Shown piece after piece: positions 36,994 to 61,383 of a stretch of 64,000 bases of DNA. Positions within the stretch are counted from its first letter, which is position 1; every line of letters begins with the position of its first letter. The notes beneath the pieces were generated by a model that did not search any database, had not been told where the DNA came from, and saw only the letters and a list, made by a program, of their open reading frames with translations. Origin of the DNA: Vibrio astriarenae (GTDB taxonomy: Bacteria; Pseudomonadota; Gammaproteobacteria; Enterobacterales; Vibrionaceae); assembly GCF_010587385.1 (NCBI RefSeq), contig NZ_CP047476.1, positions 1,615,008 through 1,679,007 on the forward strand. The letters are read 5' to 3'. The position numbers and the translations under genes were made by a program.

Positions 36994-37374
36994 TCAGTCG
37001 ATAGTTTGGCGAATATAGTCGCGGGCTAGGTCTTCTGCTCGTGTGCTGGTTATCCAGCATTTTGCCTCTGTGATATCGCCATCATCTTCACGGGTGTACA
37101 TATTGGACACCGAATAGGGGGGGTAGATAACAATAGAGTCTATCGCGACAGCGGTTTCATCAGCGTCGAAGCCCACACAGCGCGCTTTAACTGCTTCTGT
37201 GTGGGAGACTTTGATACGCCAGTGGATATCTGAAAGTGGTTGAATACGCTCGCCGGTAATGACAATCGGTTGGTTTGATTGCTGCTCTTTTGCTTGCGGT
37301 GTTTTCGCCGTTTGTGCGAAGACACTTGAACAGGTTAGAGCAGCAAGCAGCAATGTGATTTTGACAAATTTCAT
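36994..37374 (-). CDS. Small periplasmic protein of unknown function
   Basis: A 126-residue protein with a signal peptide (MKFVKITLLLAALTCSSVFAQ). I choose the ATG at 37374, preceded by GAGAGAG; a GTG three codons upstream is possible. The mature part has two cysteines (residues about 66 and 106) that could form a disulfide, and no recognised family. A TAGGA-N4-CCCTA dyad lies 69 bases upstream, nearly the motif found before sulfatase-2, MoxR-2 and anSME-2, so it may belong to that regulon. Confidence 0.6.
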   Translation of the reverse strand: MKFVKITLLLAALTCSSVFAQTAKTPQAKEQQSNQPIVITGERIQPLSDIHWRIKVSHTEAVKARCVGFDADETAVAIDSIVIYPPYSVSNMYTREDDGDITEAKCWITSTRAEDLARDYIRQTID

Positions 37375-37443
37375 AGTAAACACTCTCTCAGATTAGCTGA
37401 CAAATCACTTTGAACATTACGCGCTTCATCATTAGAGATTAAC

Positions 37444-37457
37444 TAGGAATTTCCCTA
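37444..37457. promoter_or_regulatory. TAGGA-N4-(T/C)CCTA dyad, copy 4 (one mismatch)
   Basis: TAGGA-ATTT-CCCTA, preceded by AAC as in two other copies, sits 69 bases before the small periplasmic gene at 37374. It is the weakest of the four copies. Confidence 0.45.
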
Positions 37458-37478
37458 ATTTACACTTCAGAGACGATC

Positions 37479-37501
37479 AAGCCCAAGCAGGACTTGGGCT
37501 T
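37479..37501 (-). terminator. Terminator after the HEAT/TPR gene
   Basis: AAGCCCAAG - CAGGA - CTTGGGCTT is a perfect 9-base hairpin eight bases beyond the stop at 37510. Confidence 0.65.
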
Positions 37502-37509
37502 TGTGAGTG

Positions 37510-38520
37510 CTAGTTCGACATTTGAGCTTGAAGCTGCTCAATCACAAAAGGCGGTGCTTGCTGTGATAGGGCATCAAGACACACTTGGCTGTTATCGTGG
37601 TCGCTGCGAATATAGATATCGCAAAGGGCGTAAAGGTGCTCCGAAGACCCTGACAGCATATACGCTGTCTCAAACGACGCTACTGAGTTATCCAAGTTTA
37701 TTGGCTCTTGCAATACCCCATTTAAGTACCAGTAATAGCTATTTTCCGGCTTGAGTTGCGTTGCTTTCTCCATCTCGCCTGCTGCTAAGTCGCGGCTGTC
37801 TAGTCGTACGAGTGCAAGCGATTTGGCATAGTGAAAGTCTCCATTCTCAGGAATGGTTAAGATAGCTTGGTCGAGTATCTCTACGGCTTTTTGATCTTTA
37901 TGCTGCGCTCGATAGTTATCAGACAAGTTGAGCCATAAGTCTGCGCGTTGTGGATCTTGCTCAAGTAGCTTTTTATACTTCACTTCCGCGTTAGCGTAAT
38001 CTCCCGTCCAGCGCAGAACATCTGCTAGTAACAATTGAGAGTCGAGATCATCTTGAGTGGGCAGAAACTCTTTGAGCTCAGTAATTGTGGCGCGCATGTC
38101 CGCTTTTTGCTGATCATCAAGTTGTGAATAGCCAGAGATAAGACTCATTACTGCTGAGAGGCGTACGGACTTCACTTCATCATTGAGTAGTGGCGATAGC
38201 ATCGTCCAACGATGCTCCAGTTGGTAAGGTGCTGCGCCGATCACTGCCGCTTCACGAAGCACTGGGCTTTCGTCTTTTAGCGCTCGGGCTACCGCAACCA
38301 GCCCATTTTGACTCGGTTGTTGACCCAGTGCTCTGAGGGCTGCGGCACGCTCCTCATCGCTCAGGCGAACATCTTGCGCCTGGTAAGAGAGCTGCGACAT
38401 ATCTTTAGGAGCATCTTGTGCAACTACCGTTTCTGCACGCAGCGGGCCTTGCGCTGTGGGCGTTGCCATTGCGCTCAAAGACAAGAGTGTCACTAAAAGG
38501 CATAGAGTGAATTTTTTCAT
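37510..38520 (-). CDS. Periplasmic HEAT-repeat plus TPR protein
   Basis: A 336-residue protein with a signal peptide (MKKFTLCLLVTLLSLSAMA). Residues about 50-130 form HEAT-like helical pairs (SPVLREAAVIGAAPYQL, EVKSVRLSAVMSLIS) and residues about 155-300 form TPR units (YANAEVKYKKLLEQDPQRADL, AVEILDQAILTIPENGDFHY). Such solenoids bind partner proteins. It follows anSME-1 by 12 bases on the same strand, so the two are co-transcribed. I infer a scaffold role for the periplasmic sulfatase or Bat complex, but no enzymatic motif is present. Confidence 0.8.
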   Translation of the reverse strand: MKKFTLCLLVTLLSLSAMATPTAQGPLRAETVVAQDAPKDMSQLSYQAQDVRLSDEERAAALRALGQQPSQNGLVAVARALKDESPVLREAAVIGAAPYQLEHRWTMLSPLLNDEVKSVRLSAVMSLISGYSQLDDQQKADMRATITELKEFLPTQDDLDSQLLLADVLRWTGDYANAEVKYKKLLEQDPQRADLWLNLSDNYRAQHKDQKAVEILDQAILTIPENGDFHYAKSLALVRLDSRDLAAGEMEKATQLKPENSYYWYLNGVLQEPINLDNSVASFETAYMLSGSSEHLYALCDIYIRSDHDNSQVCLDALSQQAPPFVIEQLQAQMSN

Positions 38521-38532
38521 CGGTTCACCTGT

Positions 38533-39861
38533 TTAGAATTTGGTTTGATAGCTTGGCGCCATTTGGGCTTGATAGTGCTTGCGCATCTCGGCATCACTGT
38601 ACTTGCCATGCGCAACGGGGTGACCTGTCTTTCTCAAGATATAAGCCATCGACTTGTCGACATGTGAGAAGAATTTATGCCATCCTGCACATAAGTAGTT
38701 CAGGCCCTCTTCGCCGTTTCTGGTCTTTATAAAGCGGTTTTTTGGACACTCGCCGTGACACGCAAACTTATAATCACAGCCTTGGCACTGGCTTGTCAGA
38801 GTGCGAGACTTACCAAAGCCAAACTCTTGTTGTTTTGGTCCATAGGCCATGTCGTCGAGCTTCTGGTGATGAATGTTACCAATTTTGTACTCTGGGTAGA
38901 CATAGTGGTCACAGGTGAACACATCACCGTTTGGTTCCATCGCCAAGCCTTTGCCACACAGGTCACTGAGCGTGCACAATGGGTTGCGGCGACCCATCCA
39001 CGCCTCTAGGCTGGCTTCAAAATACTGAACAAACACTTTACCAAGGTCGTTTCGCACCCACTCATCAAAGATCGCGATAAGGAAATTACCCCAAGCTTGG
39101 TCTGATACACACCACGGCTCAACCACAGAGTTAGCATTGCCCGGAATAAGGCGTTTATCGCCTTGTTTTGGTTGTTCTTCTGGCTGCCACTTTTGTGGCG
39201 CCGTTGTGCGGAAGGTTTTCTGTTCCACAATCGGGATAAACTGCATTTGTGGAGAGCGAACCTCATCACGCAGAAAGCGATACATTTCAAGCGGGTTTTG
39301 ACTGGTGAGGTTGTTGACACACGTTAGTGTCGCGAATTTAACTTGATGCTTGTGCAGCAACTCTACCGCTTCCATCACTTGCTTGAAGGTGCCCTTACCT
39401 GCACGGTTGGTGCGATAAGCATTGTGCAGCATTTCGGGGCCATCGATGCTTAGGCCAACGAGGAAGTTGTTTTTAGCAAGGAACGCACACCACTTGTCAT
39501 TGAGCAAGGTGCCGTTGGTTTGCAGATCATTGGAGATTTGAATCCCCTCTGGCTGATATTTTTTTTGCAGTTCGACTATGCGTTCAAAATACTCAAGACC
39601 GAGCATGGTTGGCTCGCCACCTTGCCATGAGAAGATGATTTCAGGGGTGTTCTGCGCCTCAATGTATTGACGAACATACGCCTCAAGCATGTCATCATCC
39701 ATTTTAGGCGAGCAACCTTTTTTATACTCAAGCAAGTCCTGCTTACTGAGGTAATAGCAGTAGGTGCAGTCAATATTACAGGCAGCGCCGATCGGTTTCG
39801 CCATGACATGAAGGCGCTTTGAGGCTTTGCCTTTGAACTGTGGACCTTGAGATAGGAGCAT
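38533..39861 (-). CDS. Anaerobic sulfatase-maturating enzyme (radical SAM), copy 1
   Basis: A 442-residue radical-SAM enzyme with a SPASM-like C-terminus. The start at 39861 has AAAGGG seven bases upstream; an in-frame codon at 39897 adds 12 residues. The radical-SAM cluster is Cys28-x3-Cys32-x2-Cys35 (CNIDCTYC), followed by SWQGGEPTMLG. The C-terminal auxiliary Fe-S cysteines lie in CDHYVYPEYKIGN and CQGCDYKFACHGECPK. Such enzymes oxidise the active-site Cys or Ser of sulfatases to formylglycine in the cytosol. It pairs with the HEAT/TPR gene and shares a promoter region with the divergent FGE-like lipoprotein. Confidence 0.92.
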   Translation of the reverse strand: MLLSQGPQFKGKASKRLHVMAKPIGAACNIDCTYCYYLSKQDLLEYKKGCSPKMDDDMLEAYVRQYIEAQNTPEIIFSWQGGEPTMLGLEYFERIVELQKKYQPEGIQISNDLQTNGTLLNDKWCAFLAKNNFLVGLSIDGPEMLHNAYRTNRAGKGTFKQVMEAVELLHKHQVKFATLTCVNNLTSQNPLEMYRFLRDEVRSPQMQFIPIVEQKTFRTTAPQKWQPEEQPKQGDKRLIPGNANSVVEPWCVSDQAWGNFLIAIFDEWVRNDLGKVFVQYFEASLEAWMGRRNPLCTLSDLCGKGLAMEPNGDVFTCDHYVYPEYKIGNIHHQKLDDMAYGPKQQEFGFGKSRTLTSQCQGCDYKFACHGECPKNRFIKTRNGEEGLNYLCAGWHKFFSHVDKSMAYILRKTGHPVAHGKYSDAEMRKHYQAQMAPSYQTKF

Positions 39862-39933
39862 AGATAAACCCTTTAAAACTGTTAACGCTAGCATCATAAG
39901 CTTTAGAGGGGCAGAGCGCGCCTTATACGGGAT

Positions 39934-39948: not shown

Positions 39949-40005
39949 GGGGAGAACTGGTAATCTTGTCCCTTCTGATTACTCATCGAAATATGAGGCT
40001 TGATT

Positions 40006-40791
40006 ATGCTTTCTTATCACAAGATATTGCTCCCAGGAGCATTATTGATGTCCATCGCTTTAACCGGGTGTGCGACCAAACCTGAACACCCGATTGCAGC
40101 CTCGATCAACAGCCAAATGGTGTTGGTTGAAGGTGGTCATTATATTCGTGGTTCGGACGCCAAAGAGGCGACAACCGTTGAGCGACCAGCGCGTGAAGTG
40201 ACGGTAGATAGCTTTTACATTGCACAGTTTGAAGTGACTCAAGAGCTGTTCCATAGTGTGATGGGCTCATCGATGAGCTTTTTCCAAGAAGATCCAATGA
40301 CACCTGTGAATAACTTGAGCTGGCAGCATGCGGTTTACTTTGTCGAGCAGCTCAATGAGTTGACTGGTGAAAACTATCGTTTGCCAACGGAAGCAGAGTG
40401 GGAGTTTGCCGCTAAGGGGGGGAATAAGAGCCAAGGGTATCGCTATGCTGGTTCAGACAATATCGAGGATGTAGCTTGGTATGCCGGCAACTCTAACAAT
40501 CGTGCCCAGCCTGTTGGACAAAAGCTACCGAATGAGTTGGGGCTGTATGATATGACCGGTAATGTTGGAGAGTTTGTAATCGATTCATTCGACGATACTT
40601 TCTATCGATTTGGGCCGACAAATAATCCAGCCAACATTAAAGACGAAGCGAGTCATCTTGCACACAAGACCGTGCGCGGTGGAAGTTTTGCTTATGAGCC
40701 TGAACTGTCTGAGAACTACCGTCGAGATTTTGCTTCTCAATCGATTTTAATGTCCGATATGGGGCTGCGTTTGGCCAAAGATGCCAAATAA
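40006..40791 (+). CDS. FGE-sulfatase (SUMF1)-domain lipoprotein without catalytic cysteines
   Basis: A 261-residue lipoprotein; I take the ATG at 40006 preceded by GAGGC, since the longer frame begins with TTG at 40000. The lipobox is LTGC, so it is anchored in a membrane facing the periplasm. The rest is a formylglycine-generating-enzyme-type fold: MVLVEGGHYIRGS, YRLPTEAEWEFAAKGG, GLYDMTGNVGEFV, VRGGSFAYEPELSENYRR. True FGEs carry two active-site cysteines in the last of these motifs. Here there are none, and the lipidated Cys is the only cysteine in the protein. It should therefore not mature sulfatases by oxidation and may be a structural or substrate-binding relative. Confidence 0.85.
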   Translation: MLSYHKILLPGALLMSIALTGCATKPEHPIAASINSQMVLVEGGHYIRGSDAKEATTVERPAREVTVDSFYIAQFEVTQELFHSVMGSSMSFFQEDPMTPVNNLSWQHAVYFVEQLNELTGENYRLPTEAEWEFAAKGGNKSQGYRYAGSDNIEDVAWYAGNSNNRAQPVGQKLPNELGLYDMTGNVGEFVIDSFDDTFYRFGPTNNPANIKDEASHLAHKTVRGGSFAYEPELSENYRRDFASQSILMSDMGLRLAKDAK

Positions 40792-40796
40792 CGCCG

Positions 40797-41708
40797 CTAA
40801 ATAAATTCTAAGTCTTTTGCACAGCTGCGGATCTGGGCTCTCAACCACAGATGCGCAGCATCGTGGTTTCGGCTCGGGTGCCAAATTGAGCAGACATTTT
40901 GTGCTGAGATTTCGAAAGGAACGTCATGCACTTGGAAGCCATATAGGCGCTCACACTCTTGCGCCATAATACTTGGCACTAGCGAGATGCAGTCTGAAAT
41001 AGCAATCACTGGAATAGCTTCAAGTAGCCCAGGTGCACTGTAGATGACTTTACGATTCTCGAGCTCCGTGACGCCAAGGTCGGTTAATATGTGGCGACGG
41101 TTGTGCCAGCGTGAAATCGCCACATGCTCCTCTTGATTAAACTGCTCTTTTGTCAGCTCGCCCGGTTTGATTCTCGGATGGTCTCCGCGACAACACGCCT
41201 TAAATGTTCCCCTTAATACCACTTCAGTTTTCAGCGTTGTTCTACCTTGTGGCTCGAGATCGAGCACTAAATCGTACTTACCAAGCCTGAGGTCTGACTC
41301 ATAGTCTTCAGCAAACAAAGGATGAATATCGAGCGAGATATTGGGGGCGATCTTGTGAATTCTAGCAAACACTGCCGGCATCAGGTGGTATGAGATAGAA
41401 GACAAACACGCAATGGACAAAACACGGTTAGACTTTTCAGCGGCGAAATCACGCGAGGAAATCAATGTAGATTTGTAATTTTGCAGTGCAGCCGCCATTG
41501 CTGGGTAGATATCGACGGAAAAACCGGTCGGTTCGACGCCAGCCGTTGAGCGGTTAAATAGTGGATCTTGATAAATATCACGTAGGCGAGATAACGCTTT
41601 ACTAACGGCAGGCTGGCTAATCTCTAAGCGCGTGGCAGCTTTCGAGAGGCTTTGCTCCTCATAGATAGCTACGAAGATAGGGATTAGGTTCAACTCATTA
41701 TTTTTCAT
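40797..41708 (-). CDS. LysR-family regulator, candidate regulator of sulfatase module 1
   Basis: A 303-residue LysR protein from the ATG at 41708 (GTGAG upstream); the frame is open to 41771, but a start there would be atypical. HTH residues 1-60 (LSKAATRLEISQPAVSKALS), effector domain from about 90. It sits between the FGE-like gene (convergent) and the batD-1 gene, inside module 1. The three ATAAC-N5-GTTAT (T-N11-A) sites in this module fit LysR-type recognition; the assignment is inferred. Confidence 0.87.
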   Translation of the reverse strand: MKNNELNLIPIFVAIYEEQSLSKAATRLEISQPAVSKALSRLRDIYQDPLFNRSTAGVEPTGFSVDIYPAMAAALQNYKSTLISSRDFAAEKSNRVLSIACLSSISYHLMPAVFARIHKIAPNISLDIHPLFAEDYESDLRLGKYDLVLDLEPQGRTTLKTEVVLRGTFKACCRGDHPRIKPGELTKEQFNQEEHVAISRWHNRRHILTDLGVTELENRKVIYSAPGLLEAIPVIAISDCISLVPSIMAQECERLYGFQVHDVPFEISAQNVCSIWHPSRNHDAAHLWLRAQIRSCAKDLEFI

Positions 41709-41812
41709 AAAAAAACTCACTATTGCCGCAGCGTGTACTGTCGGCAATAGTAACAGGTAAGATATTCTCAAGTAACCTTAAATGTGTAACTTGAAGATAG
41801 AACTATCACACT

Positions 41813-43108
41813 TTAGTAACGCTTTTCTAATGAGGGTAGCGCTTTTGGTATTACCCGAGTGAACCTGCTCTTTTTAGCCTTAGTTTCTTGAGTTTTCAGC
41901 CATGCAGACTTAGCAACCACTGCCGCTATATCTTTGGTTTGTATGGCTTCACTTTCGGTTTGCCACGTTTGTTCCGTTGATACCTGTTTTAATGTATCGC
42001 TATCGTGATTAAGCCTTGCTCGAACATATAGTATCTTCCTTATCTGTTGTGACTGTTTTCTGGTTATCGCTAAAGCAAACTCCACCCATGTTGGTAGAGG
42101 ATGGGTTTGGTAGTAGCGATAGCTGGTCAAAATTAGCAATATCAAAGCGCCCAAAATGAGGCCAGTCATAGCGATGATTTGCCAATATGCAGATAAGAAA
42201 GAGGTAAAAGTGTGGGAGACCTCAAGGCTTAACCCTGCGATAACCATTGATTCCAGCTCACCTGTTTGCGTATTCCACCATTGGACTCGGTATTCAGGCA
42301 GTACAATTTTGCCGCCTTGCTGGAGCAGATACGTTTGTTGCTCGGTACGAGTCGAGTAATAGCGCCCGCGCATCTGAGCGTCATCGAGTTGATTGGTGGT
42401 GATATAGCGTTGGAACGCTTTGGTTGAGTGTGTCGGTAGAACACTTGGTAGTAAAACTGAGAGTGAGTTTTCAGCTTTTAACGTCAGCGTACGGGTAACA
42501 CTATCACCCACTTTAAAGCGCTTAGTCTCAGAGTCTTGATATGTAATCTGCCAATCCTGCTCTATCGTTGCGTTTGACGCTGAGAACCAGTTGCTTGTCT
42601 GGGTGAGCCGTGGGCTAGGAAGGTGAACAGCAAATAATTGAGGCGCGGCATACAAGGTGGCATAGCGCGATCCCCCTTCGGATGAGGAAAAGGCGACATC
42701 CACTTTCGTTGGAGGAATGCTGACTTGACCACTGTTGATAGGGTAAATAGTCAACTCCCATCGCTGCTTGGCCCACGTTTGCCCATTGCGTCTTTCTGTC
42801 AGGTTGGTGGCAAATTGGTTACGCTGCATAATGATGGCATTGCTCACTTCAGGCAGCTCTATTTGAGTCCCTCCGGTGAACCACCTCGGTGTGGCGACTT
42901 CAATCACCATAATCACTTGCTGCTTTTGGGCAACGTCTAGCGTTTGCGAGTTATCGTGATCGCTCTGACCCTCTGTTTTGAGCCAAGATCGAATTTCAAT
43001 CTCAGGGTGTTTTTGTGATGTCGGCGCTAAATCGCCACTTCCAGCAAAACTACTGAATGACAAAGCAAAGCTGAGACCCCAAAGCAGAAAGTTTTTGAAT
43101 ATGCGCAT
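41813..43108 (-). CDS. BatD-family protein, module 1
   Basis: A 431-residue envelope protein: signal peptide (MRIFKNFLLWGLSFALSFSSFA), beta-rich Ig-like periplasmic part (residues about 25-310), and one C-terminal membrane helix (IIAMTGLILGALILLILTSY). The pattern matches the BatD family. The start at 43108 is fixed by AAGGAG seven bases upstream, four bases after the preceding stop. It is the last gene of the operon MoxR-DUF58-DUF4381-vWA-vWA/TPR-BatD. Confidence 0.85.
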   Translation of the reverse strand: MRIFKNFLLWGLSFALSFSSFAGSGDLAPTSQKHPEIEIRSWLKTEGQSDHDNSQTLDVAQKQQVIMVIEVATPRWFTGGTQIELPEVSNAIIMQRNQFATNLTERRNGQTWAKQRWELTIYPINSGQVSIPPTKVDVAFSSSEGGSRYATLYAAPQLFAVHLPSPRLTQTSNWFSASNATIEQDWQITYQDSETKRFKVGDSVTRTLTLKAENSLSVLLPSVLPTHSTKAFQRYITTNQLDDAQMRGRYYSTRTEQQTYLLQQGGKIVLPEYRVQWWNTQTGELESMVIAGLSLEVSHTFTSFLSAYWQIIAMTGLILGALILLILTSYRYYQTHPLPTWVEFALAITRKQSQQIRKILYVRARLNHDSDTLKQVSTEQTWQTESEAIQTKDIAAVVAKSAWLKTQETKAKKSRFTRVIPKALPSLEKRY

Positions 43109-43112
43109 TGGG

Positions 43113-44804
43113 TTACTCCTTGTCATTGTTATTCAAGTCGAGCTGATCTGACTCTAGCTGCAAATAGAACTTGTTTTGTAAGAACAAACTTGGGTCAGAC
43201 TCAATACGGTCAAGCCAACGCTTGGCGAGCTCTTCGCTGCCTAAAATCTCATTTGCATTTAAGGTCTCACTCATCAGCAGCTCTTGCACAACCTCTTCCT
43301 CAGCCCCTTCACTTGTCTGAGGGTTATCTCCCAGTTCGATAGACTCCTCTGGCTTTTCAGAGATGCTGTTTCTTTGGCTTTCACTGTAACGCTCGATCTC
43401 TTCGATGATAGCGTTCACTGCAGCCAAGTTTTGCTTTGCCGTCACGTGAATATTGGGATCTAATTCTTCCTTGCTTAAGAGACTTTCAAATAGTTGACGC
43501 GTTGCCAGGTATTCACGCTGACGCGCCAATGCCATGCCAGCATAGAGCAAGGCAAGATCTTGGTCGGCCTCAATGAAGGCAGCCTGCGCTTGTAGGTAGT
43601 CGCGGCCATAGTAGTAGGCCACGCCACGATAAAGAGGGTCTTCAAATTGTAAAGCCGCCTCTAGATATCGTCCTTGGTCAAACAGGCGCTGCCCTTGCTG
43701 ATCCCGAGTAAACCATAAATCCCACCAAAACTGTTTTAACTCTGAAGGCGGGGAGGGAAGTTCGCTATGTGTTTTTGTCTCTAACTCGTTCTCGGCAGCA
43801 ACGACATTATGGCTAAGCAATAGGCTCGGTGTAACCAGACAAGCCACAATGGCCCACTGCACTAGCCATCCCTTTCTAAACCAAAGTAAGGTGAACAGAA
43901 CGATCGGTAGCAACAGAGCATAGCCCATATCTTTCCAAGGCATTGTGCTGTCACCGTTGAGCTGCATATTACGTTCAATGAGGCGTTCAATTTGCTTGAT
44001 GTCGCTGTTGTCGATCGATAACTCCACTAGATTGCCATTGGCGCTGCGAGCAAGTCGTCCCAGATCCTCAAAACCAGTAGGGTTAGAGGAGTTGGAGCTT
44101 CTATTGCCGATAGCCAATATGACTAGCGAGTTTGAGGTGCGGTTGAAATAGTCAGCAACCCTATCAATATCATTCGCATTGACACCATCAGAGAACAAAA
44201 CCACACTGCCGCCTGAATCAGGGGAGAGGAGTGACTCAATAACGGGAAGGGTGCTTGCCAGCGATTTACCCGCGACAGGCATCACTTGCGGCTCAATGGC
44301 TTGCAAAAATGGCGTGAGAATTGCGCCGTCTTGTGTCATTGGCATGGCAATGTGTGCGCTGCCAGCGTAAGCAATGAGAGCGTTGTTGCCGCCGCCACGT
44401 AGTTTAATCAGATCGGTGATCTTGTGTTTAGCACGCTCTAATCGCGTCGGTGGTACATCGGTTTGTGTCATTGAGCTGCTGACGTCTAGAACAAACACGA
44501 CTTGAGCTTTATCTTCACCAAAGGGTGAGGCCTCTCGTTGCCATGTTGGGCCGGAGCAAGTAATGATCGCAAGGCCCAACATTAGGCCAAGTATCTTCAG
44601 TGGCAGCTGACTTTGCCAGCCACTGTCGTGCAGGGTTAACGCTTGTTTGAGATGCGAAGGAATGGACTGCTGCCAGTCATTATTATCTACCTTCTCCCAT
44701 TGCGAGTAGATCAGAAGAGCGGCAGGGATGAAAGCGAGCAGCCACAGCGGACGAATGAAATGGAACTGGGTAAAAAATAGCTGCCAGTTTTGCCAATCAA
44801 ACAT
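43113..44804 (-). CDS. von Willebrand factor A / TPR membrane protein (BatB/BatC-like), module 1
   Basis: A 563-residue protein. N-terminal helices are at residues 16-34 and 68-84, then a vWA domain with the metal-site motif DVSSSM (Asp107), a further helix pair around residues 300-335, and a C-terminal soluble part with TPR-like helices (YLEAALQFEDPLYRGVAYYYG, YLQAQAAFIEADQDLALLYAG). BatB and BatC functions thus appear fused. The gene overlaps the upstream vWA gene by eight bases. The vWA part should face the cytosol or periplasm as a protein-binding platform; the exact topology is not certain. Confidence 0.85.
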   Translation of the reverse strand: MFDWQNWQLFFTQFHFIRPLWLLAFIPAALLIYSQWEKVDNNDWQQSIPSHLKQALTLHDSGWQSQLPLKILGLMLGLAIITCSGPTWQREASPFGEDKAQVVFVLDVSSSMTQTDVPPTRLERAKHKITDLIKLRGGGNNALIAYAGSAHIAMPMTQDGAILTPFLQAIEPQVMPVAGKSLASTLPVIESLLSPDSGGSVVLFSDGVNANDIDRVADYFNRTSNSLVILAIGNRSSNSSNPTGFEDLGRLARSANGNLVELSIDNSDIKQIERLIERNMQLNGDSTMPWKDMGYALLLPIVLFTLLWFRKGWLVQWAIVACLVTPSLLLSHNVVAAENELETKTHSELPSPPSELKQFWWDLWFTRDQQGQRLFDQGRYLEAALQFEDPLYRGVAYYYGRDYLQAQAAFIEADQDLALLYAGMALARQREYLATRQLFESLLSKEELDPNIHVTAKQNLAAVNAIIEEIERYSESQRNSISEKPEESIELGDNPQTSEGAEEEVVQELLMSETLNANEILGSEELAKRWLDRIESDPSLFLQNKFYLQLESDQLDLNNNDKE

Positions 44805-54087: not shown

Positions 54088-54593
54088 ACGTTATCTGCTC
54101 TTTTGTGTTTGGCGCTCTGGCGCGTTATTTCACTGAACCACGACAGAGTGAGGATATGCATTTCGTCGGTGTAATCAGGGGTGCGTTGATACGACGAGCT
54201 CATTAGCTGCAATAAAATGGCCTTGGACAGTGAACGTTCGCTATGGGTAATAATAAAATCAGCAAACTCATCCGTTGTTAGTGTCGCAACGTTGGCTAGT
54301 GGCCAGTGTTGGTGGGCTGTTTGTTTCATTAGTTGGGCAATTGCCGCACCATCTTGTTGGGTATCAAGTAATAGGTATCGCTGCCATGCTTCTCTTAGAT
54401 AGGTATTTTTAAGGTAGCGATGGTAGCGCACAATGAAGTAGCCTAAGGTCGACAAGAGGGCGATGCTAAATAGTATTTTCCATGCAAGGGTTTGAGGTAG
54501 CCAAAAGACAGCGGTGGGAGTATCCATCCACTGTGCTCGGTGTATCAGGTGGCTACCAAATTCAACAATTTGGCCTTGATGTGGTGTTGTCAC
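54081..54593 (-). CDS. DUF4381-family membrane protein, module 2
   Basis: A 170-residue protein with one membrane helix (WKILFSIALLSTLGYFIVRY) and a C-terminal cytosolic part. I choose the GTG at 54593, which overlaps the DUF58 stop as GTGA and has AAAAGGGG six bases upstream; the ATG at 54632 would overlap by 43 bases. It matches the module-1 DUF4381 protein in layout. Confidence 0.8.
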   Translation of the reverse strand: MTTPHQGQIVEFGSHLIHRAQWMDTPTAVFWLPQTLAWKILFSIALLSTLGYFIVRYHRYLKNTYLREAWQRYLLLDTQQDGAAIAQLMKQTAHQHWPLANVATLTTDEFADFIITHSERSLSKAILLQLMSSSYQRTPDYTDEMHILTLSWFSEITRQSAKHKRADNVC

Positions 54594-55504
54594 TGGTTTC
54601 CCCTTTTGCAACGCGATTGCATTTGAGCCCATGTCTCTTGATGAGTGGTAAAGTTCAAGAGTGGCAAGCGGTGCTTGTCACAGTGTGCTTTGAGCTGTTG
54701 TTTCTCTTCGGCAACATGCTCTTCAAACTGTGCTTTGTCTGTGAGTTGGTGTTTCTTGACTTCTACCTGTAATTCTTGATTACCAAAGAGCACATCGTGC
54801 GTGGGAAGTTTCTCTTCTAAAGGGTCATTGATGGAAAAACCAATCAAACTGTTGTGCTTTGCAAGAGCATCTAGGTAGCGCGAGGCATGACTAGATGCAT
54901 AATCATGAAAATCACTGATGATGAAACATTGGCTGTTTCGTAAGCCAAGATTGTTGAGCGTCTCTAAGCCGTCAGCTAGGGATACGGATTTTGGTTTCAA
55001 ACTGGGCAGTTTCCCCGCCTCTTGCACTAATGTATTGAGTATTGATAACAGCGCTTTTTCACCGCGTCTGCACGGAATAGTAATGATTCCTTGTGCGGTC
55101 AAAACTACGGCCCCCAGTCGGTCGCCATCGCGAATAATGCCCCCGGATATAATGGCGGCAACCTCACTTGCTATTGCAGATTTCATGCTGCCATCAGAGG
55201 CAAAGAACATGGTGTTTCTCAGGTCGATCAATAGGGCAATTTGCTTGTCATTCTCTTCGGCGTACACTCGCAGGTAGGGCTGCCCAGTACGTTGAGTGAC
55301 TTTCCAATCAATACAACGTACATCATCACCCGGATAGTAGTGACGGAGCTCTACAAAGTCTAAGCCTCTGCCTCGCTGATGGCTGCGATGCTTACCTGTC
55401 AGTGGAGTAAGGCGCTGATAGGGTGGATGCCAGGCCAAGGTTTTGCCTAGCTGGCTGAGGTGCCCCAGTCCATCAATGTTGGGGTAGATTCTTGAATCAC
55501 TCAT
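54590..55504 (-). CDS. DUF58-domain protein, module 2
   Basis: A 304-residue protein from the ATG at 55504; the frame can also begin with TTG at 55531. The DUF58 core is RGRGLDFVELRHYYPGDD then WKVTQRTGQPYLRVY, followed by a vWA-like domain (IALLIDLRNTMFF). The residues correspond closely to the module-1 protein, confirming paralogy. It follows MoxR-2. Confidence 0.87.
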   Translation of the reverse strand: MSDSRIYPNIDGLGHLSQLGKTLAWHPPYQRLTPLTGKHRSHQRGRGLDFVELRHYYPGDDVRCIDWKVTQRTGQPYLRVYAEENDKQIALLIDLRNTMFFASDGSMKSAIASEVAAIISGGIIRDGDRLGAVVLTAQGIITIPCRRGEKALLSILNTLVQEAGKLPSLKPKSVSLADGLETLNNLGLRNSQCFIISDFHDYASSHASRYLDALAKHNSLIGFSINDPLEEKLPTHDVLFGNQELQVEVKKHQLTDKAQFEEHVAEEKQQLKAHCDKHRLPLLNFTTHQETWAQMQSRCKRGNQ

Positions 55505-55534
55505 AGAGAACACTCGTTTGAATTTACTCAAGAA

Positions 55535-56485
55535 TTAGGCAAAGCCAACATTTTCAAGCAGCTGGGTGATCACCGCTTCAGCAGTGACTCCTTGGTTTAG
55601 CGCGCTAAAACTCAACGCTAAGCGGTGGCGCAATACACTATGAGCAATGGCTCGCACGTTTTCTGGTGCCACATAGTCTTGTCCATTGAGCCAAGCATGG
55701 GCGCGAGCGCATTTATCCAGTGCAATGCTTGCCCTTGGGCTTGCTCCAAGCTCAATGACCGTAGCAAGCTCAGTGGATGGATAACGCGTTGCATGGACGA
55801 TATCGATGATGTATTGGTCAACTTGTTCCGATACATGCACCTGATCCACTAACTGACGTGCAGTAAGCACTTCGTCAGTCGTTAACTCTGAAGAGGCATT
55901 GCTGTTGATAGAACGTTCACTGCGAAGCATACGTAACATTTGCTTCTCGGCCTCTTTGTCTGGGTAGTCCACCAATATCTGTATCAAGAAGCGATCCATC
56001 TGTGCTTCGGGAAGAGGATAGGTGCCTTCTTGTTCTACTGGGTTTTGCGTGGCAAGCACCATAAAAAGGTCTGGTAATGGATGACTTTCACCCGCGACAG
56101 AGACCTGACCTTCAGCCATGGCTTCTAAAAGAGCCGACTGAACTTTGGCTGGTGCGCGATTAATTTCATCTGCTAGCAGTAAGTGGGTAAATACAGGCCC
56201 GCGTTTGAAGCTTAGGGTTTGAGATTGGCTGTCGTAGACCTCACAGCCAGTCACATCGGCCGGCAGCATATCTGGTGTAAACTGAATTCGATTGAGGTTG
56301 CAGGCAAGCTGTGTTGCCATAGCATTAACACTGCGTGTCTTTGCTAAGCCAGGTAGACCTTGCAATAACACATGACCATCAGCCAGTAGTGCAATAACTA
56401 GTTGTTGCACGGTGTTCTCTTGACCCAGAACACTCTGGTTGATTTTTTCTTGTAGCGAGATGAATTTCAGGCGCAAAGAGCTCAT
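55535..56485 (-). CDS. MoxR-family AAA+ ATPase, module 2
   Basis: A 316-residue MoxR ATPase: Walker A GLPGLAKT (43-50), Walker B LLLADEINRAP, and the signature NPVEQEGTYPLPEAQMDRF, identical to module 1 over this stretch. It heads the second six-gene operon. A TAGGA-N4-TCCTA dyad lies 62 bases before the start. Confidence 0.92.
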   Translation of the reverse strand: MSSLRLKFISLQEKINQSVLGQENTVQQLVIALLADGHVLLQGLPGLAKTRSVNAMATQLACNLNRIQFTPDMLPADVTGCEVYDSQSQTLSFKRGPVFTHLLLADEINRAPAKVQSALLEAMAEGQVSVAGESHPLPDLFMVLATQNPVEQEGTYPLPEAQMDRFLIQILVDYPDKEAEKQMLRMLRSERSINSNASSELTTDEVLTARQLVDQVHVSEQVDQYIIDIVHATRYPSTELATVIELGASPRASIALDKCARAHAWLNGQDYVAPENVRAIAHSVLRHRLALSFSALNQGVTAEAVITQLLENVGFA

Positions 56486-56569: not shown

Positions 56570-56592
56570 AAGGGCATGCTTCGCATGCCCTT
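56570..56592 (-). terminator. Terminator of sulfatase-2
   Basis: AAGGGCATGC - TTC - GCATGCCCTT with an A-run on the left (T-run on the minus strand). It makes sulfatase-2 and the MoxR-2 operon separate transcripts. Confidence 0.85.
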
Positions 56593-56634: not shown

Positions 56635-58161
56635 TTACTTCTCTTCACGGTAAGGAAGTTGTTGTAGAACACGCTCTAGGTTGAACGCGGTTGGTTCTTG
56701 ACGTAGAGGGAATTCGTTAAACGTTTGTAGAAGTTTTGCGACTTCAACCTGGATAGGTACGAAGAAGAACATACGCTCACCGAACCAACGTAGGTACATC
56801 ATAGAGTGCTCAGGAGCTTCCTCATATGGGTCTGCACGCAAGTCAACTAGCTCTGGCCAAGTTGATGCAAGACGCGGAGCGAACCAGCTCTCTTCTGTTG
56901 GGTGGATGAAGGTCGCTTTGATTTTACCAACACGTACTGCTTCTAGGTTACCCGTTTCAGCAAAGTAGAAGATCTCGTTACGCTCAGTGTCTTCGTTGTT
57001 AAACCATGCATTGCGGTGATCGTAACCATCGATGTAAACATCATGCTTAGTTTTAAAGTTCTCTTGAACGTCCTTTTCACCCGCGATAGTTGCAAGCGTA
57101 GTGAACAAGTCTTCATGTGATTGGATACCGTTATTGATTGTTCCAGCAGGGATATTACCCGGCCAGCTCACCATGAACGGTACGCGAACACCACCTTCAG
57201 TCGTTAGGCCTTTCTCGCCTTTAAATGGCGTGTTACCGCCATCTGGCCAAGACATTTTCTCAGCACCGTTGTCGGTCGTGAAAATAACGATGGTGTTGTC
57301 ACGTTGTCCTGTTTCTTCTAGCTTGTCTAGAATCTCACCAACGTAGTGGTCAAGCTCTGCCATACCGTCAGCGTAAAGACCGTAGCCTGTTTTGCCTTGC
57401 CACTCTTCGCTCAGGTGAGTCCAAACGTGCATACGCGATGGGTTGAACCACATGAAGAATGGGTCATCTGCTTTAGCGAAGTCGTCTAGGTAGTCCAGCG
57501 CCATGTCTGTTAGCTCACGGTCAATGGTTTCCATGCGCTTACGAGTTAGAGGACCCGCTGATTCAGTTGGACCGTCAGGCGTACCAGTGACAATACCGCG
57601 AGGACCGAAGCGCTCGAAGAACGCGGGATCTTGCGGGTAATCTTCATTTTCTGGCTCCTCTTCCGCATTTAGGTGGTAAAGGTTACCGTAGAAGAAATCG
57701 AAGCCACGACGGTGTGGCATCATGTGCTCTTGGTCGCCGAGGTGGTTTTTACCAAGTTGAACGTTAAAGTAGCCATGGTCTTTTAGGACTTCCGCTAGCG
57801 TTGGGTCCTCTGGGTGGATACCCAGTGGCGAGCCCGGTAGGCCAACGTTAACCAAACCAGTACGGATAGGAAGCTGACCTGTCAGAAAAGCAGCACGGCC
57901 CGCAGTAGAACTCGGTTGACCGTAGTGGTCAGTGAACAACATACCCGTATTTGCAATGCGGTCGATGTTCGGCGTTTTGTAGCCCATCATACCCATGTTG
58001 TAAGCGGAAGTGTTCGACCAGCCGATATCATCTGCCATGATGACGAGAATGTTTGGTTTCTCTGTGGTGTTTTTCGCGATAGCTGGTGCAGCGCCTAATG
58101 TCGCCACTGCCGCAGTACCGAGTACAGCCTTGTTTAGCAGGCTTTTTGTAAAGTGTTTCAT
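56635..58161 (-). CDS. Periplasmic Ser-type sulfatase (arylsulfatase family), sulfatase-2
   Basis: A 508-residue paralogue of sulfatase-1. It has a signal peptide (MKHFTKSLLNKAVLGTAAVA then TLGAAPAIA), metal-binding ILVIMADDIG, and the activation signature Ser85-Thr-Ala-Gly-Arg89 in GQPSSTAGRAAFLTG, so the residue to be oxidised is serine. Ser-type sulfatases depend on radical-SAM maturases, two of which are in this window. Later motifs: LGKNHLGDQE, FTTDNGAEKMSWPDGG. Arg codons are again mostly CGT. A TAGGA-N4-TCCTA site lies 58 bases upstream, next to the divergent histidine kinase. Confidence 0.93.
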   Translation of the reverse strand: MKHFTKSLLNKAVLGTAAVATLGAAPAIAKNTTEKPNILVIMADDIGWSNTSAYNMGMMGYKTPNIDRIANTGMLFTDHYGQPSSTAGRAAFLTGQLPIRTGLVNVGLPGSPLGIHPEDPTLAEVLKDHGYFNVQLGKNHLGDQEHMMPHRRGFDFFYGNLYHLNAEEEPENEDYPQDPAFFERFGPRGIVTGTPDGPTESAGPLTRKRMETIDRELTDMALDYLDDFAKADDPFFMWFNPSRMHVWTHLSEEWQGKTGYGLYADGMAELDHYVGEILDKLEETGQRDNTIVIFTTDNGAEKMSWPDGGNTPFKGEKGLTTEGGVRVPFMVSWPGNIPAGTINNGIQSHEDLFTTLATIAGEKDVQENFKTKHDVYIDGYDHRNAWFNNEDTERNEIFYFAETGNLEAVRVGKIKATFIHPTEESWFAPRLASTWPELVDLRADPYEEAPEHSMMYLRWFGERMFFFVPIQVEVAKLLQTFNEFPLRQEPTAFNLERVLQQLPYREEK

Positions 58162-58233: not shown

Positions 58234-58321
58234 ATTCCCCCGAAACACAGAGCGGTAACACTTTATTATTTGAAGAAATTGACGTTAAACTGTGCAGAGC
58301 AAATTACGGTGGAGTAGGATT

Positions 58322-59494
58322 TTGCCAGCAATAGACAGTGTTCTTATTTCGATTTCAAGCAAGTTACTCGATAGTCATACAGCAGGTATGGAAAGTGTCA
58401 TTTTGGAGGCACTTGAAGAGAGTCGAATTGCATTGGGCGTAGACCGAATCTCCTGTTTGCCTATCGACCCGACCATTCGCCAAGGTCGCCATTATGAGTC
58501 ATTTGGCCAGGGAATCCCTCCGGTTGATGCCGTTGTCCCTGAAAATGTTCGTCGTCGATATCGAGAGTTGATTCGGCAAGGGGAGGTGGTGTTTAGTAAA
58601 GATTCTCCTGAACTGCTCGAATTGGCGAATCAGCTTCAATCTGAAACGATTTTGAATCATGTGTTGGTGCCTATTCGAGCGATGGGAAAACCGTGGGGGT
58701 TGATGGCGTGTGCCAATTTTGTCTCCAAGCAAGAGTTGGATAGCGAGTTTGTCCATTCAGCGACCCTACTGGGCAACATCATTGCATCGAGTATCGAGCG
58801 TTTGATGCACTATGAGAACCTCAAACGCAGTGAGAAAGAGGTGATTGCCCGCAACCACCGCATTGTTAATGAAAGAGAGCGAGAGCGACGAACGATTGCC
58901 CGTGATCTGCACGATGATTTTAGCCAAAGACTGGCATCACTCGGTATCGAAATGGCAATCGCCCTCGGACAGTGTAATGACCAAGCACGTCCGGCATTTA
59001 CGAAGTGCGCCTCAGATCTGGCTGATATTACTCGCGATATTCAACACCTTTCGCGTCATCTTCACCCTGTTGTTATTGAGCGTGTTGGGTTGCACGCTGC
59101 TATCACCTCGTATGTAGAGCAGGTGACAAAGCGATCAAGCCTAGACGGTCATTTAGAGCTTGATAATTCGATTGAGTTCGATAGTGAAACGGCATTACAT
59201 CTCTATCGAGTGATTCAAGAGTCACTGTCGAATGTGGTTAAGCATGCGCAAGCAAGCGATGTTTGGGTTCGACTTTATCGTCACCCACAAGGTGATGTTG
59301 TATTGGAGGTGGAAGATAATGGTGTTGGCATCAGTGACAATCCATTAGTTCTTGATTCACCAACGTTAGGTTTGAGATCAATGATAGAGCGTGGAGAGTT
59401 AATCGGTGCTACGGTAAGCTATCTTTCTAATCACGAAGAGAAGGGAGTGACCGTAAAGGTGACGATTCCCTCCGCCCATACTCGAAAGGAGTAA
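58322..59494 (+). CDS. Cytosolic GAF-domain histidine kinase (NarL-partner type)
   Basis: A 390-residue kinase. I choose the TTG at 58322, seven bases after GGTGGAG; a GTG at 58292 gives ten more residues but has no ribosome site. The N-terminal GAF domain spans residues about 15-160. The HisKA_3 dimerisation domain has phospho-accepting His197 in ARDLHDDFSQRL, and the HATPase_c domain has EDNGVGIS and GLRSMIERGELIGA. No membrane helix, so it senses a cytosolic signal. Its response-regulator gene follows by three bases. Confidence 0.9.
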   Translation: MPAIDSVLISISSKLLDSHTAGMESVILEALEESRIALGVDRISCLPIDPTIRQGRHYESFGQGIPPVDAVVPENVRRRYRELIRQGEVVFSKDSPELLELANQLQSETILNHVLVPIRAMGKPWGLMACANFVSKQELDSEFVHSATLLGNIIASSIERLMHYENLKRSEKEVIARNHRIVNERERERRTIARDLHDDFSQRLASLGIEMAIALGQCNDQARPAFTKCASDLADITRDIQHLSRHLHPVVIERVGLHAAITSYVEQVTKRSSLDGHLELDNSIEFDSETALHLYRVIQESLSNVVKHAQASDVWVRLYRHPQGDVVLEVEDNGVGISDNPLVLDSPTLGLRSMIERGELIGATVSYLSNHEEKGVTVKVTIPSAHTRKE

Positions 59495-59497
59495 CGA

Positions 59498-60091
59498 ATG
59501 GCCACTGTTGTTATAGCTGATGACCATCAGATCGTCAGTGAGGGCATTGCCCGCTTGATTGAAGCGTCGCATCAGGTGCTTGCTATGGCTATAGATGCGA
59601 ATGAGTTGGTTCAGTTGGTGAAACAGCACCAGCCAGATTTGATCATTACCGACATTTCAATGCCGGGAATGCAGCTGAACACCACCATTTCCTTACTCAA
59701 AAGGACTTCACCAAACAGCGCTATTGTCTGCCTATCAATGCATGATGAGCCCGAAATTGTTAAGGCTGCGTATGAGTTTGGTGCCAATGGATATGTGCTT
59801 AAACACCAAGCAGGATTTGAGTTGGCGACGACCATAGAAAAAGTGCTTCAAGGTGAGCGCTATATTCCGCAAGATCTGAAAAACATTATTGAACAGAAAA
59901 CCGACTTGAGTGCTCGCCAACTCGATATTTTGAAATATTTGGCGCAAGGGATGTCAGCAAAACAGGTCGCTTCAGAGCTCAATATCTCATCAAAAACTGT
60001 TGAATATCATAAGTATAAGATGATTGAACAACTTGAAATACGCAGTGCGTCCGAACTGATTGCTTGGGCACATAGCCGCAACCTAGTTTGA
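59498..60091 (+). CDS. LuxR/NarL-family response regulator
   Basis: A 197-residue regulator: receiver domain with phospho-accepting Asp52 in LIITDISMPGM, acidic pair Asp8-Asp9, Lys near residue 103 in YVLKHQAG, and a C-terminal LuxR-type HTH (LSARQLDILKYLAQGMSAKQ and SSKTVEYHKYKMIEQL, residues 133-195). Co-transcribed with the kinase. It is the obvious candidate to bind the TAGGA-N4-TCCTA dyads upstream of sulfatase-2, MoxR-2 and the adjacent anSME-2, since NarL-type proteins bind short inverted repeats. Confidence 0.92.
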   Translation: MATVVIADDHQIVSEGIARLIEASHQVLAMAIDANELVQLVKQHQPDLIITDISMPGMQLNTTISLLKRTSPNSAIVCLSMHDEPEIVKAAYEFGANGYVLKHQAGFELATTIEKVLQGERYIPQDLKNIIEQKTDLSARQLDILKYLAQGMSAKQVASELNISSKTVEYHKYKMIEQLEIRSASELIAWAHSRNLV

Positions 60092-60128
60092 TTTGCTGTT
60101 TGTTCCTAAGTCGTGGGCAGACAGGACT

Positions 60129-60142
60129 TAGGAAATCTCCTA
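60129..60142. promoter_or_regulatory. TAGGA-N4-TCCTA dyad, copy 2 (anSME-2)
   Basis: TAGGA-AATC-TCCTA lies 56 bases before the anSME-2 ATG. The distance is nearly the same as at sulfatase-2 (58) and MoxR-2 (62). Confidence 0.7.
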
Positions 60143-60198
60143 GTGGTTTAAGTCAACTCGTGAATAGATAATGAGCAAAATATTCTCGGGAGCTCGAA

Positions 60199-61383
60199 AT
60201 GACCATTCCATCACCTCATCCATTTCATCTACTCGTAAAGCCTGTCGGTTCGAAGTGTAACCTAGATTGCCATTACTGCTACTACTTGCGTAAAGAAGAG
60301 CGCTATCAGCCTGGTGCCACGATGCAGATGTCTGAGGCTATGCTTGAGACCTATGTGCAGCAGTACATCGCCGCACAACCTAAGCACATCACCTTTGTTG
60401 ATTTTAGCTGGCAGGGTGGTGAGCCAGCACTCCGTGGTCTTGAGTTTTATGAAAAAGCGGTGGAGTTACAGCGCAAATACGCACGTCCGGGAATGACTGT
60501 AACGAATACGTTCCAGAGTAATGGCACTTTGATCAATGAACGCTGGGCGCAATTCTTCAAAAAGAACAATTTTTTGATTGGCCTGAGTATTGATGGTGAT
60601 GAGTTGAACCACAACAATGGTCGCCCGGATAGTAAAGGAAACGAAAGCTACTCACGTGTATTGCGCGGTTTAGAGTTATTGAAAAAGCACGGTGTGCAGT
60701 TCAATACCCTTACCGTTGTGCACAACGACAATGCTCATTTAGGCAAACAGACTTATCAAAAGTTAAAAGAACTTGGCTCTAGTGTCATCCAATTCCAGCC
60801 TTGCGTTGAGCACCCGTTAGATCAACGCGGTGAGAAAGATTGGTCACTCACACCGCATCAATGGGGACATTTCTTGTGTGATGTTTTTGACGAGTGGCGA
60901 AAAGAAGACGTGGGTAAGGTTTACGTTCAGTTCTTTGAGAATACACTGGGTATTCTGGCAGGCCAGCCAAGCCAAATGTGTTTCCATGCAGAAACTTGTG
61001 GTCAGCAAATGATGCTAGAACATGATGGCAGCCTATATTCCTGTGACCACTATAGTTATGAAGACCATAATGTGGGTGATATCGATGCGGTCGACCTTGG
61101 TGCAGTTGCTTCATCTCAAACCCAAGTGAACTTTGGTACCAACAAATGGCGTTCGTTGCCAAAACAGTGTCGAGAGTGTCACTTCCGTCCTATGTGTAAT
61201 GGTGGTTGTCCGAAAGAGCGCACTGCGATGACAGCGGACCTAGAGCCTGGCTTGAACCACCTATGTATGGGGTACAAAAAGTTCTTCTTACACTCAATGC
61301 CATATTTTGCGGCAATGTTAGAGGCGCTTAAGCAAGGGCATCCTGCCTCGGTTTATCCTATGTTTGTGCAGCGCGTTAGTTAA
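60199..61383 (+). CDS. Anaerobic sulfatase-maturating enzyme (radical SAM), copy 2
   Basis: A 394-residue radical-SAM sulfatase maturase. The cluster motif is Cys20-x3-Cys24-x2-Cys27 (CNLDCHYC), followed by DFSWQGGEPALRG, the core SIDGDELNH, and auxiliary Fe-S cysteines in CDHYSYEDHNVGD and CRECHFRPMCNGGCPKE. It converts Cys or Ser of sulfatases to formylglycine before export. Start supported by GGGAG. It lies behind the two-component genes with its own dyad and shares clear homology with copy 1. Confidence 0.93.
   Translation: MTIPSPHPFHLLVKPVGSKCNLDCHYCYYLRKEERYQPGATMQMSEAMLETYVQQYIAAQPKHITFVDFSWQGGEPALRGLEFYEKAVELQRKYARPGMTVTNTFQSNGTLINERWAQFFKKNNFLIGLSIDGDELNHNNGRPDSKGNESYSRVLRGLELLKKHGVQFNTLTVVHNDNAHLGKQTYQKLKELGSSVIQFQPCVEHPLDQRGEKDWSLTPHQWGHFLCDVFDEWRKEDVGKVYVQFFENTLGILAGQPSQMCFHAETCGQQMMLEHDGSLYSCDHYSYEDHNVGDIDAVDLGAVASSQTQVNFGTNKWRSLPKQCRECHFRPMCNGGCPKERTAMTADLEPGLNHLCMGYKKFFLHSMPYFAAMLEALKQGHPASVYPMFVQRVS

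Follow-up and report, generated by a model that had tools for sequence, protein, structure and literature searches.

MoxR-Bat operons are widespread, and few of their clients are known. Among related systems, mxaRSACKL is needed for Ca2+ insertion into the MxaFI methanol dehydrogenase; S1 sulfatases are Ca2+ enzymes as well. Passages of PMC9976466 describe insertion of Fe_B into nitric oxide reductase by NorQ/NorD, and passages of PMC6414531 give the mxa gene order. We analyzed a stretch of 64,000 nucleotides of Vibrio astriarenae (contig NZ_CP047476.1, C2:1615008-1679007, hereafter the window), which ends the second of the two contigs of a 4.8-Mb genome from a probably marine bacterium. It carries two complete six-gene operons, both on the minus strand and in the order MoxR, DUF58, DUF4381, vWA, vWA/TPR, BatD (modules A and B, Table 1). 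The initial annotation had seen in them two paralogous operons of identical gene order, each beside its own S1 sulfatase. Open reading frames, Pfam matches and coordinates bear this out, sulfatase A being divergent from MoxR-A, and sulfatase B lying directly upstream of MoxR-B in the same direction. By analogy with mxaRSACKL we lean, at a little better than even, towards each operon being an accessory machine dedicated to the adjoining exported sulfatase, which it would fold and load with Ca2+ by means of ATP.

In both modules MoxR, DUF58, DUF4381, vWA and BatD are over the Pfam cut-off, each module within a single directon. BatD-A is barely above threshold (25.8 bits for a cut-off of 24.1), and the TPR part of the module B vWA/TPR protein is based on weak profile matches. 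The metal ion-dependent adhesion site (MIDAS) motif DxSxS is intact in all four vWA proteins. The two modules are 56% identical in MoxR, 42% in vWA, 38% in DUF58, 28% in vWA/TPR and 20% in BatD; given such low values a recent duplication was rejected, and as judged from these identities the modules are old, diverged paralogues. Sulfatases A and B are 50% identical. Both keep the formylglycine (FGly) motif C/S-x-A/P-x-R, as CTAGR in A and STAGR in B, and the Ca2+-ligand positions DD...DN; motif and ligands are also kept in the aligned family members. The closest named relatives of sulfatase A are from Vibrio (84-85% identity).

The association of these sulfatases with Bat genes was first considered in 61 related genomes, where linkage was scored when a sulfatase of the window's family (family sulfatase) lay at most 15 kb from a DUF4381 match over cut-off. 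These counts exclude four DUF4381 matches below cut-off and, for a G001 sulfatase that is split, its second fragment. Forty of 66 family sulfatases are near DUF4381, and 28 of the 84 DUF4381 matches lie within 15 kb of a family sulfatase. Among the 150 PF00884 matches listed, the proportion near DUF4381 is 39/63 for family sulfatases vs 0/87 for other sulfatases (Fisher p 1e-19). At the genome level, two or more DUF4381 genes are present in 23 of 24 sulfatase-positive genomes vs 2 of 37 negative ones and, within the genus, in 22 of 23 vs 2 of 14 (p 6e-7). Chance pairing was rejected on the absence of DUF4381 near any of these 87 non-family sulfatases and on this genome-level co-occurrence. The co-occurrence in other genomes that a dedicated system, as initially proposed, calls for is therefore present (40/66 vs 0/87) and, as an association, the dedication of the Bat machine to these sulfatases is well supported. 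Four DUF4381 copies without an adjacent family sulfatase were inspected. In G034 and G020 family sulfatases are present elsewhere in the genome; the G004 copy stands at a contig start, with a radical-SAM anaerobic sulfatase-maturating enzyme (anSME) and a HEAT/TPR gene; the G017 copy (L282) adjoins a DUF1254 protein. The family-negative exceptions with at least two DUF4381 genes are G014, with a DUF1254/DUF1214 neighbour, and G036, with a YfdX neighbour. The Bat operons of G014 (L280) and G017 are divergent from the DUF1254/DUF1214 protein and have no family sulfatase near; the L280 MoxR clusters with sulfatase-linked MoxRs. Bat may have a second type of client in DUF1254/DUF1214 proteins. The G036 operon (L281) adjoins both the YfdX protein and a sensor kinase, and its MoxR groups with those of ordinary Bat operons.

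Outside the genus, we read at most 20 kb of DNA around each family match (an order set and a phylum set), and 80 named loci. A locus was called linked when at least four Bat genes stood beside the sulfatase; loci with one to three Bat genes (L091, L092, L093, L136, L199 and L249) are in neither class of the 194-locus counts. Three sulfatase candidates were scored per genome and most matches were fetched, so that per-genome counts are lower bounds. Linked loci are distributed as follows: 29/60 in the order set, 11/51 in the phylum set and 27/80 in the named set or, for loci with 8 kb or more of sequence to either side, 25/53, 11/44 and 21/53. The order MoxR-DUF58-DUF4381-vWA is kept in 66 of 67 loci, and the sulfatase is on the MoxR side of the operon in 56 of 66. 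Named hosts include Vibrio, Photobacterium, Gilvimarinus, Bradyrhizobium, Rhizobium, Bosea, Gemmata, Echinicola, Algoriphagus, Galbibacter and Desulfoluna; from organism names we take the isolates to belong to Pseudomonadota, Bacteroidota, Planctomycetota and Desulfobacterota. The cassette is also found in metagenome-assembled genomes labelled Acidobacteriota and Sulfurovaceae. Plasmids carry it too: the deposited annotation of a 66-kb Persicobacter plasmid reads arylsulfatase, HAD hydrolase, MoxR, DUF58, DUF4381, VWA, VWA, BatD, DUF2490, arylsulfatase, and a linked cassette is present on the Sinorhizobium meliloti plasmid pSymA. Passages of PMC7159879, PMC12839542 and PMC2997495, which mention sulfatases along with MoxR or DUF58, draw no link between them.

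At 15 loci (the window and 14 others) sulfatase and MoxR share a strand, with the sulfatase immediately upstream. Judged by eye, all 15 have a terminator-like hairpin with a T-rich tail between the two genes; an automatic scan for perfect stems of at least 7 bp finds a hairpin in 7 of them. In one locus (L148) the sulfatase stop codon is 61 nt from the first MoxR ATG, which leaves little room for a separate MoxR promoter. The promoter scan found 6 promoters vs 12.9 expected. We infer that the hairpin may be a leaky terminator yielding more sulfatase than machine.

These distributions bear on the idea that Bat merely travels with sulfatases in polysaccharide-utilization or mobile islands and serves envelope stress with no sulfatase client. 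Cassettes on plasmids are in line with it, as are the Bat modules beside DUF1254 or YfdX genes and the ties of ordinary Bat operons to aerotolerance and stress in the accessible part of the literature. Such islands nevertheless seem unlikely as the explanation, since none of the 87 non-family sulfatases is near DUF4381, tight adjacency and a fixed order are kept across phyla, co-occurrence holds at the genome level even with the genes apart (e.g. G034 and G020), and the sulfatase-hairpin-MoxR arrangement is recurrent.

Under the dedicated-machine reading, FGly would be formed by an anSME, a formylglycine-generating enzyme (FGE) or a third route, and the sulfatase chain exported by Sec. An inner-membrane Bat complex, with a cytosolic MoxR motor and DUF58 and with periplasmic vWA, TPR and BatD domains, would then bind the sulfatase and spend ATP to fold it and load its active-site Ca2+, as in mxaRSACKL; the hairpin would keep the machine scarcer than its client. 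As we read hydropathy, charge and domain order, MoxR and DUF58 would be cytosolic, and vWA, vWA/TPR and BatD would be membrane proteins whose domains face outwards. The N-terminus is hydrophobic in sulfatase A by hydropathy and in sulfatase B by eye. Of the roles initially suggested for the Bat modules (metal insertion, folding, anchoring or activation of the sulfatases), metal loading is put forward as the best analogy only.

Bat genes are present at 14 of 27 anSME loci, 9 of 25 FGE loci (one of the 25, L241, is doubtful) and 23 of 34 loci with an octaheme cytochrome, a candidate third route presented below. As Bat is not tied to one FGly route, it probably acts after or beside the FGly step. 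Bat itself as the third FGly system was set aside: it accompanies sulfatases whichever of the three routes they use, and many sulfatases of genomes that lack both known routes have no Bat nearby. An aid to the FGly-making step, e.g. keeping the sulfatase in an open state on which FGE or the octaheme protein could act, would fit the 18 of 22 linked loci with both genes in which the octaheme gene is directly beside MoxR, between it and a sulfatase, and the two genomes (G193 and G627) in which octaheme is near DUF4381 with the listed sulfatases on other contigs. We nonetheless consider it improbable: anSME is cytosolic whereas the vWA and BatD domains are predicted to be periplasmic, and Bat accompanies all three routes, each of which also has many loci without it. 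Little credence is also given to Bat inserting the sulfatase or a partner into the envelope, for anchoring or secretion, with the active site untouched. Some sulfatase loci do have envelope-protein neighbours (DUF2490; BamA/TamA and an annotated transporter, the latter two with no Bat gene listed), but these are not general, and the sulfatases resemble ordinary secreted proteins with no extra anchor seen by eye.

The evolution of the linkage was followed on two trees. On a tree of 123 family sulfatases (only matches above 450 bits) the Bat-linked label is clustered, with 21 changes vs 39.8 in shuffles, yet scattered, which implies repeated gain or loss of the linkage. Ninety MoxR rows were placed on a second tree, with three mxa MoxRs as outgroup and ordinary Bat MoxRs hand-picked from high DUF4381 scores; the nine ordinary MoxRs fall there together with the G036 copy in a single clade (support 100). 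Over 47 non-redundant pairs, MoxR distances are correlated with sulfatase distances (r 0.31, p 0.0002).

Several observations weigh against a dedicated, Ca2+-loading machine. Host descent confounds the correlation of distances, and the sulfatase-linked MoxRs do not form one clade, since the ordinary ones branch from within them. No Bat gene lies within about 10 kb at 122 of the 194 classed sulfatase loci, some of them cut by contig ends, and in the 61 relatives a sulfatase clade of about 49% identity is never Bat-linked. A Bat module of the sulfatase-linked MoxR clade also stands beside DUF1254/DUF1214, so that Bat may have clients other than sulfatases. The Ca2+ step is drawn by analogy, through a weak MxaA-BatD match (probability 77%) and a weak TPR-like MxaK (E 0.08). 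Finally, the FGly table in the accessible part of PMC6189696 indicates that activity of sulfatases in E. coli does not always require a cognate Bat.

Beside the operons and sulfatases, the initial annotation had listed two anSMEs, an FGE-like lipoprotein, a HEAT/TPR protein, a LysR regulator and a two-component pair, and all of them were found. Both radical-SAM genes are true anSMEs by the TIGR03942 cut-off, 40% identical to each other, but anSME is not a fixed partner of Bat: no anSME is present within the stretch read at 58 of 72 Bat-linked loci, although for some it lies just past the stretch end. It is present at all 14 Ser-type loci. The proposal that each module needs its own anSME was accordingly rejected, since anSME tracks the Ser-type motif. 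For the lipoprotein, the FGE fold (PF03781) holds and the catalytic cysteine pair does not: 'RGGSFAYEPELSENYRRD' stands at the site of CxxxxC in true FGEs. It was therefore rejected as a working FGE and, by these residues, is not an FGE by the known mechanism.

The HEAT/TPR gene, on which the initial annotation makes no remark, turned out to be the neighbour that told us most. The genome has four DUF4381 genes: two in the window, one in an ordinary Bat operon at C2:680 kb, and one at C2:568 kb. The last belongs to a third sulfatase-Bat cluster at C2:561-572 kb (L122, C2:555000-574999), where a Cys-type family sulfatase (at 561 kb), an octaheme c-HEAT-TPR gene and a full Bat operon lie on one strand. 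The octaheme protein is a 770-aa open frame with eight CXXCH in its first ~430 residues. Residues 44-332 of the window HEAT/TPR protein match its residues 470-764 (BLASTP, 33% identity, E 1e-41): the window protein is a heme-less counterpart, with no CXXCH, of the C-terminal ~310 aa. This heme-less form was found at 16 loci, of which 10 have an anSME in the stretch and 5 have one 36-703 bp from the HEAT/TPR frame, where the stretch ends or shortly past that point; at the remaining locus (L218) no anSME was seen. With an anSME near in 15 of 16 heme-less loci, the HEAT/TPR scaffold tends to occur in one of two settings, fused to the octaheme part or next to an anSME. Of the 194 loci, 142 show neither anSME nor FGE in the stretch, and 32 of these carry octaheme, vs 2 of the 52 that do show one (Fisher 0.0013). 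In genomes with both octaheme and anSME the nearest anSME is 1.4-11.6 kb away in 4 of 13, about 30 kb in 2, and farther or on another contig in 7. The locus-level exclusion is therefore partly an effect of stretch length, which slightly lowers the odds of a third route.

FGly makers were then counted in whole genomes, in the 76 genomes with a family sulfatase that comprise all positives outside the genus and G013. Thirty have an anSME over cut-off, 20 others an FGE and 26 neither; in nine of the 26 (G480, G484, G491, G562, G588, G321, G404, G555 and G664) there were more than 24 FGE candidates, of which 24 were scored. CxxxxC is present in all 30 FGE loci cut out. The 26 'neither' genomes span 16 families, and the FGly motif was observed in the loci of 24 of them (not G013 and G094). 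Octaheme presence was called at E of at most 1e-60, with 13 candidates scored in most genomes, in a sample of our choosing: all 26 'neither' genomes, 20 of 30 anSME, 13 of 20 FGE and 21 of 37 family-negative genomes, the negatives all being from the window's order and 12 from its genus. Octaheme is present in 25/26 'neither', 13/20 anSME, 2/13 FGE (G488 and G527) and 0/21 family-negative genomes. Fisher p for 'neither', uncorrected for descent, is 5e-7 vs FGE, 0.014 vs anSME and 2e-12 vs negatives. The one 'neither' genome with no octaheme found, G404, is split into 380 contigs, and its genus (g36) has anSME in 6 of 7 other tested genomes. Contrasts among close relatives point the same way: within one family G559 has FGE and no octaheme whereas G599 has octaheme and neither maker, and within g36 G321 has octaheme and neither maker whereas G162 and G311 have anSME and no octaheme. 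In 14 of the 25 genomes the octaheme gene lies at most 15 kb from a scored family sulfatase. Among the 61 relatives 23 of the 24 family-positive genomes have an anSME over cut-off (that of G001 is broken), so octaheme is not the only possible route there; the exception, G013, has octaheme.

Octaheme proteins were also found in 59 PLSDB plasmid records, a second collection in line with the sulfatase pairing. Fourteen of 40 listed plasmids, chosen for variety, were inspected, and 13 have an annotated sulfatase or arylsulfatase within 9 kb of octaheme; the exception, pAlt76 of Alteromonas sp. 76-1, has two sulfatase-like genes elsewhere on the plasmid. An overlap of 4 bp joins the annotated arylsulfatase and octaheme genes on pOB3b1 of Methylosinus trichosporium OB3b. 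On the Aureibacter plasmid pAT1 (L325) cytochrome b and Rieske genes precede octaheme, beside sulfatase genes; this suggests a link to the quinone pool, with no indication of the direction of electron flow. On a Pseudoalteromonas carrageenovora plasmid (L320) octaheme is divergent from an annotated 'sulfatase', possibly of another S1 family, so that octaheme may accompany sulfatases outside the window's family as well. A model of the full protein has a predicted local distance difference test (pLDDT) score of 75, and its 50 best PDB matches are TPR or similar helical-repeat proteins or complexes; the heme domain alone was modelled at low confidence (pLDDT 48).

Suspicion of a third FGly-forming system goes back to 2007 (Benjdia 2007, as cited in PMC6189696). 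The accessible part of PMC8379841 mentions a third, still unidentified system suspected in E. coli. From its distribution the octaheme protein is a good candidate for such a system, perhaps not the sole one. A more specific proposal, which we hold tentatively and at somewhat less than even, is that octaheme c-HEAT-TPR is a third, periplasmic, heme-based FGly former: it would oxidize the Cys of exported Cys-type S1 sulfatases with electrons passing to or from the respiratory chain, MoxR-Bat would present or fold the substrate, and the window's scaffold would be heme-less because its anSMEs make FGly. Oxidation of released sugars by the octaheme protein is an alternative that we keep in view; it would not alone explain the complementarity with anSME and FGE.

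Table 1. Features of the sulfatase/MoxR-Bat region (positions in the window)
Feature	Position	Strand	Evidence
Small protein of 129 aa, function unknown, probably secreted	36994..37383	-	No Pfam match; hidden Markov model relatives in 3 further module-B-type loci (L176, L178, L180)
HEAT/TPR protein, heme-less, probably secreted	37510..38520	-	Pfam; BLASTP to octaheme protein C-terminus; no CXXCH
anSME A, radical-SAM sulfatase maturase	38533..39897	-	TIGR03942, 496 bits (cut-off 349)
FGE-fold lipoprotein without FGE cysteine pair	40000..40791	+	PF03781, E 7e-42; motif check
LysR-type regulator	40797..41771	-	Pfam
BatD, module A	41813..43126	-	PF13584; recurrent position in related loci
vWA/TPR membrane protein (BatB+BatC-like), module A	43113..44804	-	PF13519; MIDAS DVSSS
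vWA membrane protein (BatA-like), module A	44797..45834	-	Pfam; MIDAS DLSGS; hydropathy suggests periplasmic vWA domain
DUF4381, module A	45831..46331	-	PF14316, E 6e-15
DUF58, module A	46310..47275	-	PF01882
MoxR AAA+ ATPase, module A	47287..48282	-	PF07726, E 1e-61; MoxR tree
S1 sulfatase A, Cys-type (CTAGR)	48661..50217	+	PF00884; motif and Ca2+ ligands
BatD, module B	50356..51549	-	Pfam
vWA/TPR, module B	51549..53099	-	Pfam; MIDAS DLSRS
vWA, module B	53092..54087	-	Pfam; MIDAS DLSGS
DUF4381, module B	54081..54632	-	Pfam
DUF58, module B	54590..55531	-	Pfam
MoxR AAA+ ATPase, module B	55535..56485	-	Pfam; MoxR tree
Terminator-like hairpin with T run in the sulfatase B/MoxR-B gap; partial read-through likely	56570..56592	-	Top of hairpin scan list
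S1 sulfatase B, Ser-type (STAGR)	56635..58161	-	PF00884; motif and Ca2+ ligands
GAF-HisKA_3 sensor kinase	58292..59494	+	Pfam; present in some module-B-type loci too
LuxR-type response regulator	59498..60091	+	Pfam
anSME B, radical-SAM sulfatase maturase	60199..61383	+	TIGR03942, 500.5 bits

Two further neighbours were observed. A PafA-like alkaline phosphatase at 35163-36854 adjoins the cluster (NF042991, 424 bits, under the cut-off of 650), and its relatives recur near family sulfatases at 13 loci including the window. A HAD-family hydrolase (PF12710) is recurrent with the arylsulfatase on one side and Bat or octaheme genes on the other (L230:8443-9477, L287, L323, L331 and L332); its cluster is found in 19 linked and 12 unlinked loci.

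The recurrence of the sulfatase pairing in several phyla points to an unrecognized sulfatase-assembly route. Sulfatases are central to polysaccharide breakdown in the sea and the gut, and a conserved sulfatase client offers a simple assay of Bat machine function, aryl sulfate hydrolysis. The octaheme lead makes testable which system forms FGly in bacteria without FGE and anSME, a question open since 2007.

Compared with known systems, the locus shares true anSMEs with the described sulfatase maturation pathways, and true FGEs occur at other loci of the family; these enzymes act on the residue, not on folding. To our knowledge neither of them requires a Bat machine. The octaheme protein resembles multiheme c-type cytochromes by its CXXCH series (nearest sequence matches of the heme part: PDB 6i5b and 6qvm, which give no function) and differs by its C-terminal HEAT/TPR fusion and its sulfatase linkage. 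The MoxR-Bat (Bacteroides aerotolerance) operons have the same six genes in the same order as the window modules; however, window-type MoxRs fall outside the nine-member ordinary clade, and the operon is tied to an S1 sulfatase. NorQ/NorD, which is not known to include DUF58, DUF4381 or BatD, is a MoxR and vWA pair that a named client requires for metal loading. It differs in being a two-protein system, as described in the accessible part of PMC9976466. For mxaRSACKL, operons were located via MxaI (PF02315) in 8 of 299 genomes, and three of the eight were read. PF02315 has no match in the window's genome, and no MxaF/MxaI methanol dehydrogenase is adjacent to the modules. The order in the three genomes is MoxR, DUF58, MxaA (named by its homologues), vWA, possibly a TPR-like protein, and vWA. 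MoxR, DUF58 and the two vWA match by Pfam in one of them (L191) and by profile in the other two (L189-L190), and MxaA aligns weakly to BatD (201 columns, E 2e-5). The likeness thus lies in a MoxR-DUF58-(MxaA, BatD-like)-vWA-x-vWA operon beside a periplasmic Ca2+ enzyme; the differences are that no DUF4381 was found in the mxa operons, that their MoxRs are on a separate long branch, and that their client is a pyrroloquinoline quinone (PQQ) dehydrogenase. As the best analogy, the sulfatase Bat operon would work like mxaRSACKL, of which it is not a member.

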